Assembly (NCBI RefSeq): GCF_040267685.1
Contig: NZ_CP158367.1
Location: 2,790,001-2,854,000 of the forward strand
Source: Proteinivorax tanatarense
Lineage (GTDB): Bacteria > Bacillota > Proteinivoracia > Proteinivoracales > Proteinivoracaceae
Direction: 5' to 3'
DNA: 64,000 bases
How positions within the stretch are numbered: position 1 is the stretch's first letter; each line of letters begins with the position of its first letter. The translations under genes were made by a program, and so were the position numbers. Positions 35,648 to 58,232 of this stretch are shown here, one piece after another. The notes beneath the pieces are model-generated. The model searched no databases. It was given only the letters and a program-made list of their open reading frames with translations, and was not told the DNA's origin.

Positions 35648-36830
35648 CAAGCTCATCTTGGGTTGTGGTCGGCACGGTGGCGCGACCACTACTTTGTAAA
35701 AGGTGGAGGATGTGTTCCTTATAGCGGGGTAGTGGGCGACCTCTGTGTCGCCCAGCATTTATGGTTGATAGTATATATTGGGCTGTCTGTCTAAATAGAG
35801 ATAGTAAGATGAAAGAGATGGTAAGTTTGTATAACTACCTTTGTGCTTAATTGGAGATATGTATTGTAAAATTAGCTGTTATTTCTGTATTTTTCCCCTT
35901 TTGGGCAAGCTCATCTTGGGTTGTGGTCGGCACGGTGGCGCGACCACTACTTTGTAAAAGGTGGAGGATGTGTTCCTTATAGCGGGGTAGTGGGCGAACT
36001 CTGTGTCGCCCAGCATTTATGGTTGATAGTATATATTGGGCTGTCTGTCTAAATAGAGATAGTAAGATGAAAGAGATGGTAAGTTTGTATAACTACCTTT
36101 GTGCTTAATTGGAGATATGTATTGTAAAATTAGCTGTTATTTCTGTATTTTTCCCCTTTTGGGCAAGCTCATCTTGGGTTGTGGTCGGCACGGTGGCGCG
36201 ACCACTACTTTGTAAAAGGTGGAGGATGTGTTCCTTATAGCGGGGTAGTGGGCGAACTCTGTGTCGCCCAGCATTTATGGTTGATAGTATATATTGGGCT
36301 GTCTGTCTAAATAGAGATAGTAAGATGAAAGAGATGGTAAGTTTGTATAACTACCTTTGTGCTTAATTGGAGATATGTATTGTAAAATTAGCTGTTATTT
36401 CTGTATTTTTCCCCTTTTGGGCAAGCTCATCTTGGGTAGTGGTCGGCACGGTGGCGCGACCACTACTTTGTAAAAGGTGGAGGATGTGTTCCTTATAGCG
36501 GGGTAGTGGGCGAACTCTGTGTCGCCCAGCATTTATGGTTGATAGTATATATTGGGCTGTCTGGGTAGAGGTAGTAAGTTGAAAGGGATGGTAAGTTTGT
36601 GTAACTACCTTTGTTCTTAATTGGAGAATATGTATTGTAAAATTAGCTGTTATTTCTATATTTATCATCTTTGGTAAGCTATATCTTGGGTTATGGTCGG
36701 CACGGTGGTGCGACCACTACCTTGTAAAAGGTGGAGGATAAGAGTTCCCCCATAGCGGGGTAGTGGGCGACCTCTGTGTCGCCCAGCATTTATGGTTGAT
36801 AGTGTATTGGGCTGGCTGAGTAGAGGTGAT
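35648..36830. repeat. Tandem array of a 258-bp unit built from paired REP-like hairpins
   Basis: CAAGCTCATCTTGGG recurs at 35648, 35906, 36164 and 36422 (exactly 258 apart), with a fifth, diverged unit from about 36675. Each unit has a reverse hairpin (minus strand GTAGTGGTCGCGCCACCGTG then CCGACCA) and a forward one (GTAGTGGGCGACCTCTGTGT then CGCCCA, first at 35729), so that the GTAG ends face each other. Units 1-4 are almost identical. Any open frames here are by-products of the repeat. Confidence 0.85.
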
Positions 36831-48524: not shown

Positions 48525-49150
48525 GATGGCCGGCACAGTGACCGGCCACTACCCTATCGAGGGTTGGTTTTAGTTTTATATGGGGTTTGCCTCCTTATCC
48601 ACAAAGGGGTAGAGGTGACCTCTGTGTCAACCTTAGTAACACTGCTCTTTTTTCCTTTTGCTCTGCTTGGTTATATCCGACACAGCGACCAGTCGTTTCC
48701 CTATCGGTAGTTGATGTTGGTTTTATATGGGGTTTGCCTCCTTATCCACAAAGGGGTAGAGGTTGACCTCTGTGTCAACCTTAGTAACACTGCTCTTTTT
48801 TTCTTTTGCTCTGCTTGGTTATATCCGACACAGCGACCAGTCGTTTTCCTATCGGTAGTTGGTGTTAGTTTTATATGGGGTTGCTTCCTTATCCCCAAAG
48901 GGGTAGAGGTTGACCTCTGTGTCAACCTTTGCAACATCTGCTCTTTTTTCCTTTTGCTCTGCTTGGTTATATCCGACACAGCGACCAGTCGTTTTCCTAT
49001 CGGTAGTTGGTGTTAGTTTTATATGGGGTTGCTTCCTTATCCCCAAAGGGGTAGTGGTTGACCTCTGTGTCAACCTTTGCAACATCTGCTCTTTTTTCCT
49101 TTTGCTCTGCTTGGTTATATCCGACACAGCGACCGGTCGCTACTCTACCT
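48525..49150. repeat. REP-like array with a 148-bp unit
   Basis: Four to five units recur every 148 bases. Each has a forward hairpin GTAGAGGTTGACCTCTGTGT then CAACCT (at about 48607, 48756, 48904 and 49050). A reverse hairpin has core CGACTGGTCGCTGTGTCGG on the minus strand (at about 48676, 48824, 48972, 49120). The first reverse copy (48531) has a different core, GTAGTGGCCGGTCACTGTGC then CGGCCA. The array fills the gap between the S9 peptidase and the amidohydrolase. Confidence 0.8.
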
Positions 49151-52882: not shown

Positions 52883-53689
52883 TTATTCTGCTGCGCTCAA
52901 TACAGCGTTTAGTGTTTTAAATAACTGTAAAAAATCAGTATTTTGAATTTCCACCGTCTTGTTACCCACTTTTGTCACTGTGGGAATTCTTTCTGCAAGA
53001 CTCGGCCCCTGACTTGTCAAAAATTCTACCTCTAAAATAAAAGGACCCTCTTCCGCTAATACTTTTCCTTCAAAATTAAGTGCTTCTTTAATTTTGCTTT
53101 TGTACCCATCCTTTAGCTGTTCATAGCTTATATTATGTGCTGATGAACGATTTATAGACTCTTTAACCGCCAAAGTTGGTATATTACCAATTTCTTCTTC
53201 TACCTGTTGAGTCAACATCGTATCGCCGGATACAAATACCACAGGTACAGAATAATATCCTGCTAGTCTAGCGTTCATCCCCGCTTCACCTATAGGATCA
53301 CCGTTCAGTTTCACAGAAGCAAGCAAGCTACTGTTATATGTGTGGTCAAAAGCTGAAAAAGATGACCCCGCTCTGGAGTGATAACCGATAAACATAGCTT
53401 TATCATATCCTTTTTCTATGCCCTGCATCATACTTAAAGGTTTAGGACTCCCTGATATAAGTTGCACCCTTGAATTAAGCTGTTCTATAAATAAATTGTC
53501 CATAGGTCCGTGGGAGTCATTTATAACAATCTCCTCTACCCCGTTTTCAAATAAAGCTTTACAAACTAAGTTAACTTCTTTGGTCATAAGCTCCCGACCC
53601 CGTGTATAGTCAGGGTTTTCTCCAATAATTTGCTTTCGAGAAACAACACCCCATATCCCTTCAATATCAGCAGATATATATATTTTCAT
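52883..53689 (-). CDS. dppA: M55 family D-aminopeptidase, copy 1
   Basis: A zinc-dependent DppA-type peptidase that removes N-terminal D-amino acids, probably from cell-wall peptides. The product has 268 residues. The expected zinc ligands are visible: Asp8 and Glu10 in ISADIEGIWG, His in INDSHGPMDN (about 60), His in GYHSRAG (about 104) and Glu in GEAGMNARLAGYYSVP (about 133). No dpp transporter genes are next to it. A very similar second copy lies 3.3 kb away on the same strand, with REP-like arrays and a RAYT gene between them. Confidence 0.93.
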   Translation of the reverse strand: MKIYISADIEGIWGVVSRKQIIGENPDYTRGRELMTKEVNLVCKALFENGVEEIVINDSHGPMDNLFIEQLNSRVQLISGSPKPLSMMQGIEKGYDKAMFIGYHSRAGSSFSAFDHTYNSSLLASVKLNGDPIGEAGMNARLAGYYSVPVVFVSGDTMLTQQVEEEIGNIPTLAVKESINRSSAHNISYEQLKDGYKSKIKEALNFEGKVLAEEGPFILEVEFLTSQGPSLAERIPTVTKVGNKTVEIQNTDFLQLFKTLNAVLSAAE

Positions 53690-53769: not shown

Positions 53770-55080
53770 TCCCCCATCAAGGGGTATGAATTGACCTCTG
53801 TATCAACCTTACAGTAACTGGATACAGTTTTGGATGCTTTATATACATTTTCGATTAAATTGCCAAATGCGGTTATGGTCGGCACGGTGGCGCGACCACT
53901 ACCTCTGGGAGGGAAGGAAGAGACAGAAGCACTATTAAAAATATATTTTTTTCTCTCCCATCAAGGGTAGGAATTAACCTCCAACCCTACAGTAACTGGA
54001 TACAGTTTTGGTGTTTATATACATTGTCGCTTAGATTGCCAAATACGGTTATGGTCGGCACGGTGGCACGACCACTACCTCTGGGAGGGAAGGAAGAGAC
54101 AGAAGCACTATTAAAAATATATTTTTTTCTCTCCCGCAAGTAGGGGTTGACCTCTCAACCCTACAGTAGCTGGACACAGCTCCGGCTGTTTTATATACAT
54201 TGTCGCTTAGATTGCCAAATACGGTTATGGTCGGCACGGTGGCGCGACCACTACCTCTGGGAGGAAGGAAAAAAATTGAAGCACTATTGCTACTGTACTT
54301 TTCTCTCTCCCGCAAGGATAGGGGTTGACCTCTGTGTCAACCCTGCAGTAACTGGATACAGTTTTGCGTGTTTTATATACATTGTCGCTTAGATTGCCAA
54401 ATACGGTTATGGTCGGCACGGTGGCACGACCACTACCTCTGGGAGGGAAGGAAGAGACAGAAGCACTATTAAAAATATATTTTTTTCTCTCCCGCAAGTA
54501 GGGGTTGACCTCTCAACCCTACAGTAGCTGGACACAGCTCCGGCTGTTTTATATACATTGTCGCTTAGATTGCCAAATACGGTTATGGTCGGCACGGTGG
54601 CGCGACCACTACCTCTGGGAGGAAGGAAAAAAATTGAAGCACTATTGCTACTGTACTTTTCTCTCTCCCGCAAGGATAGGGGTTGACCTCTGTGTCAACC
54701 CTGCAGTAACTGGATACAGTTTTGCGTGTTTTATATACATTGTCGCTTAGATTGCCAAATACGGTTATGGTCGGCACGGTGGCACGACCACTACCTCTGG
54801 GAGGGAAGGAAGAGACAGAAGCACTATTAAAAATATATTTTTTTCTCTCCCGCAAGTAGGGGTTGACCTCTCAACCCTACAGTAGCTGGACACAGCTCCG
54901 GCTGTTTTATATACATTGTCGCTTAGATTGCCAAATACGGTTATGGTCGGCACGGTGGCGCGACCACTACCTCTGGGAGGAAGGAAAAAAATTGAAGCAC
55001 TATTGCTACTGTACTTTTCTCTCTCCCGCAAGGGTAGGGGTTGACCTCTGTGTCAACCCTGCAGTAACTGGATACATTTT
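53770..55080. repeat. REP-like array, left part, with a 358-bp higher-order unit
   Basis: A basic unit of about 175-183 bases contains a reverse hairpin (GGTCGGCACGGTGGCGCGAC then CACTAC on the plus strand) at 53877, 54053, 54229, 54411, 54587, 54769 and 54945. It also has a forward hairpin (GTAGGGGTTGACCTCTGTGT then CAACCC, or a shorter GTAGGGGTTGACCTCTCAAC form). From about 54049 the two forms alternate as a 358-base dimer repeated almost exactly three times. Frames within are repeat artefacts. Confidence 0.85.
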
Positions 55081-55200
55081 TGAGTTTTTTGATCATAATT
55101 TCAGTTTATTTTCCTTAATTTTTAAAATAATTCAATTATTAAAAAGGTTTTTTCTGCTTATTTTAGAATACTTCTTTAAAATGTTAAGGAGGTAAATAAT

Positions 55201-55683
55201 ATGAGTCGTAAAAAAATTCGACTAAGTAATTTTAATTACTCAGCTACTGGTGCCTATTTTATCACTATATGTACACAACACAAAATCCCATACTTAGGAA
55301 ATAAGCAGACCCTGAAGAAGAATAAATTTGGCGAAATTGTATTAAGAAGTTGGATAGATATTGAAAAAATTTATAACAACACAGCGATAGATTACTTTGT
55401 TATTATGCCAAATCATATCCATGGAATTATTTTTTTATATAATGATTCTGAGGAAAATCAAAACAAAAACAACATAATAACGATTATAAAAAATTTTAAG
55501 TCCTACACCACTAATCAATACGGCACCCTTGTAAAACAAGATGGTTGGAAGCCTTATAAAACCAGGTTATGGCAACGAGGATATTATGAGCATGTTATCA
55601 GAAATGAACATTCCTTAAATAAACTTCGAAACTATATAATAAACAACCCCTTAAAATGGAAATTAGATAGGCATTATGTCTAA
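55201..55683 (+). CDS. REP-associated tyrosine transposase (RAYT, TnpA-REP)
   Basis: An IS200/IS605-like Y1 HUH transposase domain of 160 residues, a common RAYT length. The HUH pair is in IMPNHIHGII (His72, His74). The C-terminal part LWQRGYYEHVIRNE and LRNYIINNPLKW is the RAYT signature, with candidate catalytic tyrosines at 128/129 and 145. The N-terminus NFNYSATGAYFITICTQHK is also typical. AGGAGG lies nine bases upstream. The gene stands alone inside a large array of GTAG hairpins, the arrangement expected of a RAYT with the REPs it mobilises. Intact frame and motifs suggest activity. Confidence 0.95.
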   Translation: MSRKKIRLSNFNYSATGAYFITICTQHKIPYLGNKQTLKKNKFGEIVLRSWIDIEKIYNNTAIDYFVIMPNHIHGIIFLYNDSEENQNKNNIITIIKNFKSYTTNQYGTLVKQDGWKPYKTRLWQRGYYEHVIRNEHSLNKLRNYIINNPLKWKLDRHYV

Positions 55684-55714
55684 AAGAAAGGGATGGAAAG
55701 TTATTTGTCTACTG

Positions 55715-56870
55715 TAGTTACCTTCCCTCCCACAAGGGTAGGGGTGACCTCTGTGTCAACCCTACAGTAACCGGATACAGTTTTGGGTGTTTATATACAT
55801 TGTCGCTTAGATTGCCAAATGCGGTTATGGTCGGCACGGTGGCGCGACCACTACCTCTGGGAGGGAAGGAAGAGACAGAAGCACTATTGCTATTATACTT
55901 TTCTCTCTCCCGCAAGGGTAGGGGTTGACCTCTGTGTCAACCATACAGTAGCTGGACACAGCTCGGGCTGTTTTTATATACATTGTCACTTAGATTGGCA
56001 AATACGTTATGGTCGGCACGGTGGCGCGACCACTACCTCTGGGAGGGAAGGAAGAGACAGAAGCACTATTGCTATTATACTTTTCTCTCTCCCCGCAAGG
56101 GTAGGGGTTGACCTCTGTGTCAACCCTGCAGTAGTTGCATACAGTTTTGGATGCTTTATATACATTTTCGATTAAATTGCCAAATGCGGTTATGGTCGGC
56201 ACGGTGGCGCGACCACTACCTCTGGGAGGGAAGGAAGAGACAGAAGCACTATTGCTATTATACTTTCTCTCTCCCGCAAGGGTAGGGGTTGACCTCTGTG
56301 TCAACCCTGCAGTAGCTGGACACAGTTTTGGGTGTTTATATACATTGTCGCTTAGATTGCCAAATACGGTTATGGTCGGCACGGTGGCGCGACCACTACC
56401 TCTGGGAGGGAAGGAAGAGACAGAAGCACTATTGCTATTATACTTTCTCTCTCCCGTAAGGGTAGGGGTTGACCTCTGTGTCAACCCTGCAGTAGCTGGA
56501 CACAGTTTTGGGTGTTTATATACATTGGTCGCTTAGATTGCCAAATACGGTTATGGTCGGCACGGTGGCGCGACCACTACCTCTGGGAGGAAGGGGAAAA
56601 AATTGAAGCACTATTGCTACTGTACTTTTCTCTCTCCCGCAAGGGTAGGGGTGACCTCTGTGTCAACCCTGCAGTAGTTGCATACAGTTTTGGATGCTTT
56701 ATATACATTTTAGCTTAAATTGCCAAATGCGGTTATGGTCGGCACGGCGGCGCGACCACTACCTCTGGGAGGAAGAGGAAAAAATTGAAGCACTATTGCT
56801 ACTGTACTTTTCTCTCTCCCATCAAGGGTAGGGGGTGACCTCTCAACCCTGCAGTAGCTGGACACAGTTT
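55715..56870. repeat. REP-like array, right part
   Basis: The same unit as left of the RAYT continues, with reverse hairpins at 55829, 56010, 56192, 56372, 56552 and 56733. Forward hairpins have the full GTAGGGGTTGACCTCTGTGT form. Spacing is 179-182 bases. CTCTGGGAGGGAAGGAAGAG and CTCTCTCCC between the hairpins can also pair, so one whole unit could fold as a long cruciform. Confidence 0.85.
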
Positions 56871-56931
56871 TGATTTTTATCCAGGTATAATTGGGGTAAA
56901 AAGTACACTTATAGATTTAAACTAATATATT

Positions 56932-56970
56932 AACATAAATGAGCTGGCAGATAGCCAGCTCATTTATGTT
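56932..56970. terminator. 17-bp perfect inverted repeat at the end of M55 copy 2
   Basis: AACATAAATGAGCTGGC pairs with GCCAGCTCATTTATGTT across five bases. The stop codon of the peptidase gene is inside the right arm. Confidence 0.75.
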
Positions 56971-57778
56971 ATTTTCCTGCTACACTTATCACCGCATTTA
57001 AGGTCTTAAATATTTCTAAAAAATCGTCACTTTTTATTTCTATTGTTTTTGCTCCTGTTTGGGTTACTGTGGGGATCCTGGGTGCTAAATTTGCTCCTTG
57101 ACTTGTTAAAAATTCTACTTCAATAACGTAAGGACCCTGGGGATTTAGTGGTTCAATGTTTAATTCTACGGCTTCCTTTATTTTATCTTTATATCCTTGT
57201 TCAAGTTGTGAATAGCTTAGATTAACCGCTGAGGTTCGGTTAATTGATTCTTTTACTGCCAAAGTTGTTATGCTACCTATCTCTTCTTCAACCTGCTCTG
57301 TCAATGATTTATCTCCCGAAACAAACACCACTGGCACAGAATAGTACCCTGCTAGGCGAGCATTTAGTCCAGATTCACCAAAGGAAGTCCCGTTTAATTT
57401 GATAGATGAAATTATTCCTCCGTGATACGTATGGTCAAAGTTGGATCTTGAAGATCCCGCTCGTGAATGATACCCGATAAACATCGCTTTGTCATAGCCT
57501 TTTTCGATTCCTTGCATCATACTTAAAGGTTTAGGGCTTCCTGATATAAGTTGAACATTAGGATTAAGGTTTTCTATCAAAATATTATCCATCGGTCCGT
57601 GAGAGTCATTAACTGTTATATCTGTAACTCCATTTTCTAACAATGCTTCACAAGCTAGGTTAACCTCTGTGGTCATTAGCTCTCTAGCCCTAGAATAATC
57701 TGCACCGGCACTCATAACCTGTTTTTTTGAAACCACGCCCCATATTCCTTCAATGTCAGCAGAAATATACACTTTCAT
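56969..57778 (-). CDS. dppA: M55 family D-aminopeptidase, copy 2
   Basis: The product has 269 residues and keeps every zinc ligand seen in copy 1 (Asp8, Glu10, the His of VNDSHGPMDN, the His of GYHSRAG, the Glu of GESGLNARLAGYY). Roughly seven of ten residues match copy 1. Changes are spread along the chain, with the greatest drift near 210-235 (VELNIEPLNPQGPYVIE). The two are therefore an older duplication, not a recent array-driven copy. An AAGGTGG RBS precedes the ATG. Confidence 0.92.
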   Translation of the reverse strand: MKVYISADIEGIWGVVSKKQVMSAGADYSRARELMTTEVNLACEALLENGVTDITVNDSHGPMDNILIENLNPNVQLISGSPKPLSMMQGIEKGYDKAMFIGYHSRAGSSRSNFDHTYHGGIISSIKLNGTSFGESGLNARLAGYYSVPVVFVSGDKSLTEQVEEEIGSITTLAVKESINRTSAVNLSYSQLEQGYKDKIKEAVELNIEPLNPQGPYVIEVEFLTSQGANLAPRIPTVTQTGAKTIEIKSDDFLEIFKTLNAVISVAGK

Positions 57779-57889
57779 AAATTAAGCACCACCTTATAAT
57801 ATTATTTAGTTATACCATGATAAATTTATAAAGCTTCTTACTTTTAAAATTCATTATAGTAGTTTTATAACACGCTAGGGTTAAAAGGC

Positions 57890-58232
57890 TAGCTCTGTGT
57901 TAACCCTATAGCAACTAAATTGCTAGTATCTTACATGCTAATTATTACTTAGAGCTATGGTCGGCACGGTGGCGCGACCACTACCTTTGGGAGGGAAGAG
58001 ACAGAAGCTATTGCTACTATACTTTTTTCTTTCCCGCAAGGGTAGAGGTTGACCTTGTGTCAACCCTGCAGTAGCTGGACACAGCTCCGGCTGTTTTATA
58101 TACATTGTCGCTTAGATTGCCAAATACGTCTATGGTCGGCACGGTGGCGCGACCACTACCTCTGGAGGAAGGAAAAAAATAAAGCACTATTGCTATTATA
58201 CTTTTCTCTCTCCAGCAAGGGTAGGGGTTGAG
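57890..58232. repeat. Two further REP-like units
   Basis: Reverse hairpins GGTCGGCACGGTGGCGCGAC occur at 57959 and 58134, with a forward GTAGAGGTTGACC copy between them and a degenerate GGGTTAACAC pair near 57895. They continue the neighbouring array on the far side of the M55 gene and end at the stop of the acetyltransferase gene. Confidence 0.8.

Follow-up and report, generated by a model that had tools for sequence, protein, structure and literature searches.

A probable REPtron in Proteinivorax tanatarense: a single-copy RAYT gene among GTAG-footed REP arrays

Described REPtrons and the Proteinivorax locus

REP-associated tyrosine transposases (RAYTs) and the repetitive extragenic palindromes (REPs) found with them make up systems known as REPtrons, and a gene and hairpin family of this kind, designated RAYT1 and REP1, are described here from Proteinivorax tanatarense, a member of the Bacillota. 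They lie in a stretch of 64,000 nucleotides (the window; 36% G+C) that corresponds to G000:C1:2790001-2854000, where G000 is the genome analysed here, a near-complete sequence in one contig of 3.09 Mb. Among described systems, the REPtrons of subclass 2.4 (Bertels group 4) are the most similar (PMC6006769). They share with the present locus a GTAG foot, long REPs with G-C pairs at the base of the stem, double-foot REPs and a scattered occurrence over many phyla. REP inserts inside the transposase gene are predominant, but not universal, in this subclass (PMC6006769), and many of the RAYT1 homologues found here likewise carry inserts of variable length between the HUH and Y motifs. In contrast, RAYT1 itself (160 aa) lacks such an insert, its host is a member of the Bacillota, and its REP carries an extra 5' mini-hairpin. 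In the tree of homologues, which contains no named subclass 2.4 references, phyla are intermingled, and RAYT1 forms a long branch of unsettled position in an open fork. Given the lack of an insert and of reference proteins in the tree, subclass 2.4 is the nearest group rather than a firm assignment.

The E. coli REPtron Ec provides a structural comparison (TnpA-REP, PDB 4ER8; PMC8266576). RAYT1 has the same Y1/HUH fold and the conserved W, Q, H and R residues, and the bacterial interspersed mosaic elements (BIMEs) of E. coli likewise comprise inverted REP pairs, usually repeated in tandem (PMC8266576). The two systems differ in the REP stem, the proteins are 18% identical over the fold alignment, and RAYT1 is known from sequence and a model. 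In Pseudomonas fluorescens SBW25, tandem GI-GIII REP arrays with up to 12 REPs each contain two alternating REP types at a period of ~184 bp, clusters of REP doublets forming hairpins (REPINs) lie beside RAYT genes, and the tandem arrays are oppositely oriented on opposite sides of the chromosome (PMC3116915). The alternation of two REP types, the similar period and the proximity of REPs to a RAYT gene all recur in P. tanatarense, while the host phylum, REP sequence and RAYT group differ, and here the RAYT gene lies inside the array.

The RAYT1 locus and the REP1 hairpin family

RAYT1 (55201-55683, plus strand) specifies a 160-aa Y1/HUH RAYT, as identified by Pfam, NCBIfam, alignment and an AlphaFold model. 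Its reading frame is open and is situated between units 7 and 8 of a tandem array, with seven units to the left (units 1-7, 53791-55082) and six to the right (units 8-13, 55703-56872), both supported by tandem-repeat calls, REP model matches and unit identities. The unit period is 176-183 bp (~180 bp), and each unit contains an inverted pair of imperfect hairpins whose GTAG feet face each other across ~65 bp. The hairpin HP1, GTAGTGGTCGCGCCACCGTGCCGACCA, is on the minus strand and has exactly 13 copies within 53876-56762, located at 53876, 54052, 54228, 54410, 54586, 54768 and 54944 in units 1-7, and at 55828, 56010, 56193, 56373, 56554 and 56736 in units 8-13. It alternates with HP2, GTAGGGGTTGACCTCTGTGTCAACCC, on the plus strand. 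Two more units, 14 and 15 (57858-58232; REP model matches), lie between a gene for an M55 D-aminopeptidase and a GNAT gene, with HP1 at 57958 and 58133 and HP2 at 58042. A sequence-only reading of this DNA had described an intact HUH/Y1 RAYT within 13 tandem units, two more units beyond the M55 gene, and GTAG motifs with imperfect palindromes in face-to-face pairs; its coordinates, counts and pairing were all confirmed. A minus-strand GTAG hairpin at 55222-55247, inside the RAYT1 coding sequence, is probably due to chance.

Hairpins with a GTAG foot number 20 in the window, compared with 0-2 for most permuted feet; the higher counts for GGTA (16) and TAGG (9) come largely from overlap with the GTAG motif itself. 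Whole genomes were searched with a covariance model (R1) based on 12 hairpins of the window, and the counts are lower bounds, as 150 candidates were scored per genome (150 of 767 in G000). R1 matched at least 84 sites in G000, at least 73 in the sister species (G001) and at least 18 in G002, a member of the same family, while no match was found among the best 150 candidates of either G003 or G004, two other members of the family that also lack a RAYT match. The genome-wide count proposed by the sequence-only reading therefore shows that the hairpins do occur elsewhere in the genome. In 77 distinct aligned REP1 copies, 95.6% of stem cells are paired (79.2% when shuffled), and changes on both sides of the stem number 118 against 36 expected, with all sliding controls far lower. 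The covariation supports the REP1 hairpins; the alignment was fitted to the R1 model and so is biased towards the structure. An Rfam scan of the window gave no match. Dispersed copies are almost all intergenic by simple calls of open reading frames, and many are single, inverted pairs being seen in the arrays. REP1 shows the usual features of a REP: a GTAG foot beside an imperfect palindrome, high copy number, intergenic location and inverted pairs.

Two other REP1 arrays were detected in the window by tandem-repeat calls and the REP model. The second (35648-36818) has 4.6 copies of a 258-bp unit and includes a double-foot REP, GTAG...CTAC, at 36436-36466, and the third (48527-49143) has about four copies of a 148-bp unit. 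Both were missed by the sequence-only reading (as arrays at 35648-36818 and 48563-49139). Their unit lengths and spacers are unlike those at the RAYT1 locus, and since the hairpins are common to all of these arrays, the recurring entity is the hairpin and not the 180-bp unit.

Clusters of dispersed REP1 copies that share a single orientation point with the replication fork in 42 of 49 cases (14/16 in G000, 28/33 in G001), and in 9 of 11 outside co-directional gene settings (p = 0.065). Coupling of orientation to replication is not claimed, as genes run with the fork too, and a second hairpin family (REP2, below) appears by eye to lack a bias. A dense REP1 cluster at G001:C1:1241022-1366884 shows a flip in orientation between 1.28 and 1.34 Mb. 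At 1.34-1.37 Mb its copies oppose both the genes and the GC skew, an exception to the fork-directed pattern.

Dispersed REP1 copies of the genus carry a mini-hairpin, CCTC-nnn-GAGG, directly 5' of the main hairpin, the last G of which is the first base of GTAG. All four pairs (G-U allowed) are present in 61 of 94 copies, the loop is variable, and three copies have an alternative CCGC/GCGG stem. When scored strictly (Watson-Crick stem of at least 4 bp), the mini-hairpin is found in 58 of the 88 dispersed copies of G000 and G001. The corresponding figures are 232 of 5706 (about 4%) for all GTAG motifs of those loci, and 5 of 234 for hairpins in the vicinity of other RAYTs. A 3' tail resembling TCAGYAAATGG follows 46 of 91 copies, but occurs at 0.5% of random positions. 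Since REP1 copies are related by descent, the conservation of mini-hairpin and tail is not by itself proof of function. Tentatively, REP1 of this genus might be a compound element of ~65 bp (mini-hairpin, main hairpin and the tail ATCAGYAAATGG) in which the mini-hairpin might mask or expose the GTAG guide and thereby control or steer cleavage by the RAYT. Such a recognition feature was not met in the other RAYT loci examined, and the extra mini-hairpin taking in the first G of GTAG is possibly new.

RAYT1, its relatives and a second RAYT/REP pair

RAYT1 matches the Pfam Y1_Tnp family at 27.7 bits (cut-off 23) and the NCBIfam REP_Tyr_transpos profile at 76.7 bits, versus 20.7 bits for the IS200 profile. 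Across an alignment of 33 homologues, H72 and H74 (HUH), Y145 and N149 are invariant. The residues of the E. coli RAYT that contact GTAG are W94, Q95, E100/H101 and R104 (PMC6006769), and counterparts are present in the guide-motif stretch of RAYT1, WQRGYYEHVIR (W124 to R134), as W124, Q125, H131 and R134. The AlphaFold model has a pLDDT of 89.6, and its top PDB match by Foldseek is 4ER8, the E. coli RAYT-REP complex. A profile search of the PDB also gave 4er8 as the best match (1.1e-10); the copper oxidases that topped a phmmer search with RAYT1 alone were chance matches. By these measures RAYT1 is nearer to RAYTs than to IS200/IS605 transposases. A protein search found it as a single copy in G000, together with one paralogue of 34% identity.

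Genome contigs from many phyla yielded 489 relatives of RAYT1, and the best 80 of these, which include Clostridia, have best-segment identities of 31-43%. Of all 256 tetranucleotides, GTAG is the most frequent hairpin foot in the 1 kb around 75 RAYT homologues (99 versus a median of 6). RAYT1 homologues were detected in 7 of the 61 genomes searched, G000 included, and every intact homologue (in G002, G006, G029, G037 and G041) is accompanied nearby by a GTAG hairpin with a sequence of its own. The G002 homologue is 45% identical to RAYT1, and its flanking hairpin is recognised by the R1 model. The earlier view that the RAYT is embedded in its own REPs is supported by these hairpins, the frequency of the GTAG foot, the REP model matches in the arrays, the covariation, and the RAYT fold and profile matches. 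The accompanying claim, that such a locus is unusual in a low-GC Gram-positive, holds weakly, and is not supported at the level of the gene family, as 144 of 299 genomes of the phylum encode a RAYT-like Y1 protein (E<=0.001), 48 of them above the NCBIfam cut-off. Many of these proteins are 250-350 aa long, and thus resemble the class without REPs. A third Y1 protein of G000 (G000:C1:2307045-2307371) has a 356-aa open frame of this long type and a possible 341-aa equivalent in G001. No paper on REPs or RAYTs in Clostridia was found in the literature searched, which largely excludes subscription journals.

The paralogue, RAYT2 (G000:C1:464246-464617; 34% identity to RAYT1), lies in a 156-bp-period array of its own hairpin, REP2, GTAGCGGGGAATTCATTCCCCG. 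REP2 has 126 matches in G000 (64 and 62 by strand), most of them between 245 and 520 kb, with none for the reversed control, and three matches in G001, which lacks RAYT2. In G002, a RAYT2 homologue is accompanied by yet another hairpin. The REP2 counts with and without RAYT2 suggest that REPs depend on their cognate RAYT, as does the REP1 count of zero among the candidates scored in G003 and G004. Members of the two families lie about 60 bp or less apart at G000:C1:303625-303723, 307377-307467 and 836860-836936, and these sites resemble mixed two-family elements.

Turnover of REP sites, array growth and competing explanations

The window block at 45.4-60.7 kb aligns to G001:2588000-2600000. 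Within it, the G000 REP arrays of 749, 3228 (with RAYT1) and 432 bp correspond to alignment gaps of 77, 10 and 61 bp in G001; the 77-bp gap, opposite the third REP1 array, contains no REP. Conversely, REP-bearing gaps of 408 and 1258 bp in G001 correspond to 89 and 129 bp in G000. Among the syntenic gaps examined that hold REPs, five do so in G000 only, seven in G001 only and five in both, although the gaps were picked for having REPs and the ratio is not a rate. REP sites have been gained or lost at differing places in the two lineages.

The RAYT cassette is flanked by M55 D-aminopeptidase genes (Pfam Peptidase_M55), both on the minus strand: copy a at 52883-53689 and copy b at 56969-57778. 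In G001 the corresponding genes are adjacent, with 66 bp between protein matches, and the cassette is absent. G002, G003 and G004 each have one good M55 match, so that the pair looks like a duplication within the genus, and the adjacent arrangement is more probably the ancestral one. Insertion of the cassette in G000 is therefore more likely than its loss from G001, although this is not proof. The second M55 gene of G001 (G001:C1:2597157-2597959) matches as two separate pieces and may be frameshifted, and the REP-bearing inserts of G001 (L197 5900-8310) also contain an inverted repeat, GTCATTCTAAGCG...CTCAGAATGAC, of a separate family.

In the RAYT1 array, identity is 99-100% among units 2, 4 and 6 and also between units 3 and 5, whereas adjacent units of that part differ by 16-18%. 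This alternation indicates duplication of a two-unit, 358-bp block, which appears to have been recent. Divergence is greatest in units 14 and 15 (58-77% identity to other units).

The locus is very probably a REPtron, in which a single-copy RAYT1, nearest the subclass 2.4 type, is embedded in its cognate REP hairpins. It adds a good example to a class of RAYT/REP system already known, and does not represent a novel type. This reading draws on the hairpins and their covariation, the integrity and predicted fold of RAYT1, the association across genomes, the dispersal of REP1, its lineage-specific presence at orthologous sites and the block-wise identity within the array. Binding, cutting and mobilisation of REP1 would follow by analogy. 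If it acts like the proteins studied in E. coli, Stenotrophomonas and Marinomonas (PMC8266576), RAYT1 would bind the hairpin in single-stranded form via its GTAG foot, cleave at a CT close by with a 5'-phosphotyrosine intermediate, and then religate the ends. REPs, singly or as inverted pairs, would thereby spread to other intergenic sites, and arrays may subsequently lengthen through duplication of whole blocks. Several points weigh against this account. The RAYT1 score of 76.7 bits is narrowly below the NCBIfam RAYT cut-off of 80, recombination or slippage alone could suffice for array growth with no RAYT required, the comparison is across species rather than several strains of one species, and any present activity of RAYT1 is putative. 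Furthermore, no RAYT1 orthologue was found in G001 despite its abundant REP1 copies, so the presence of RAYT1 by itself does not predict REP1 abundance.

The G001 genome also lends weight to an unlikely alternative, in which the hairpins were spread by an older RAYT, since lost or decayed, RAYT1 is a later arrival or bystander, and arrays grow only by recombination or slippage. Alongside at least 73 REP1 copies, it has a RAYT relative of 34% identity (G001:C1:215333-215803) that is interrupted by two in-frame TAA codons and contains a GTAG hairpin (L125 5596), and one long Y1 protein of 341 aa. REP1 is thus abundant with no intact REP-type RAYT detected, which may reflect recent loss or mobilisation by another protein. 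The sequence-only reading had counted equal abundance in RAYT-less relatives against itself; G001 goes halfway to this, but G003 and G004 gave no REP1 match among their best 150 candidates. The suggestion in that reading that the system is probably active is not supported, given the REP1 copies that G001 keeps. Block duplication in the window array, and identical-looking tandem copies 522 bp apart in G001, also fit growth without a RAYT. However, RAYT1 lies inside the densest REP1 array, the R1 model recognises the hairpin flanking the G002 homologue, REP2 has 126 copies with RAYT2 versus three without, and REP sites differ between species.

A main role for the hairpins in terminating transcription or stabilising mRNA, kept by selection and only incidentally linked to the RAYT, would fit their intergenic location and the orientation of most dispersed copies with neighbouring genes, but is improbable given the conserved GTAG foot, the family-specific hairpin beside each intact RAYT, the multi-copy arrays and the turnover at orthologous gaps. 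An IS200/IS605-type insertion sequence with terminal hairpins, instead of a domesticated RAYT, is most improbable. The fold superfamily is common to both and there is the weak IS200 profile match, but the best model, profile and fold matches are to RAYTs, and the hairpins are GTAG-footed, mostly away from the gene and in inverted pairs in arrays. In such an element the gene and both ends move as a unit, whereas RAYT1 is single copy and the hairpins have spread without it.

The biochemical and population studies of RAYTs and REPs that we found are almost all gamma-proteobacterial. The P. tanatarense locus adds a chromosome from the Bacillota that bears two distinct RAYT/REP pairs and long tandem arrays, together with a sister species whose corresponding sites are empty or filled elsewhere, and so offers a new phylum in which to ask whether RAYTs spread REPs, whether REPs outlive their RAYT, and how the arrays grow.

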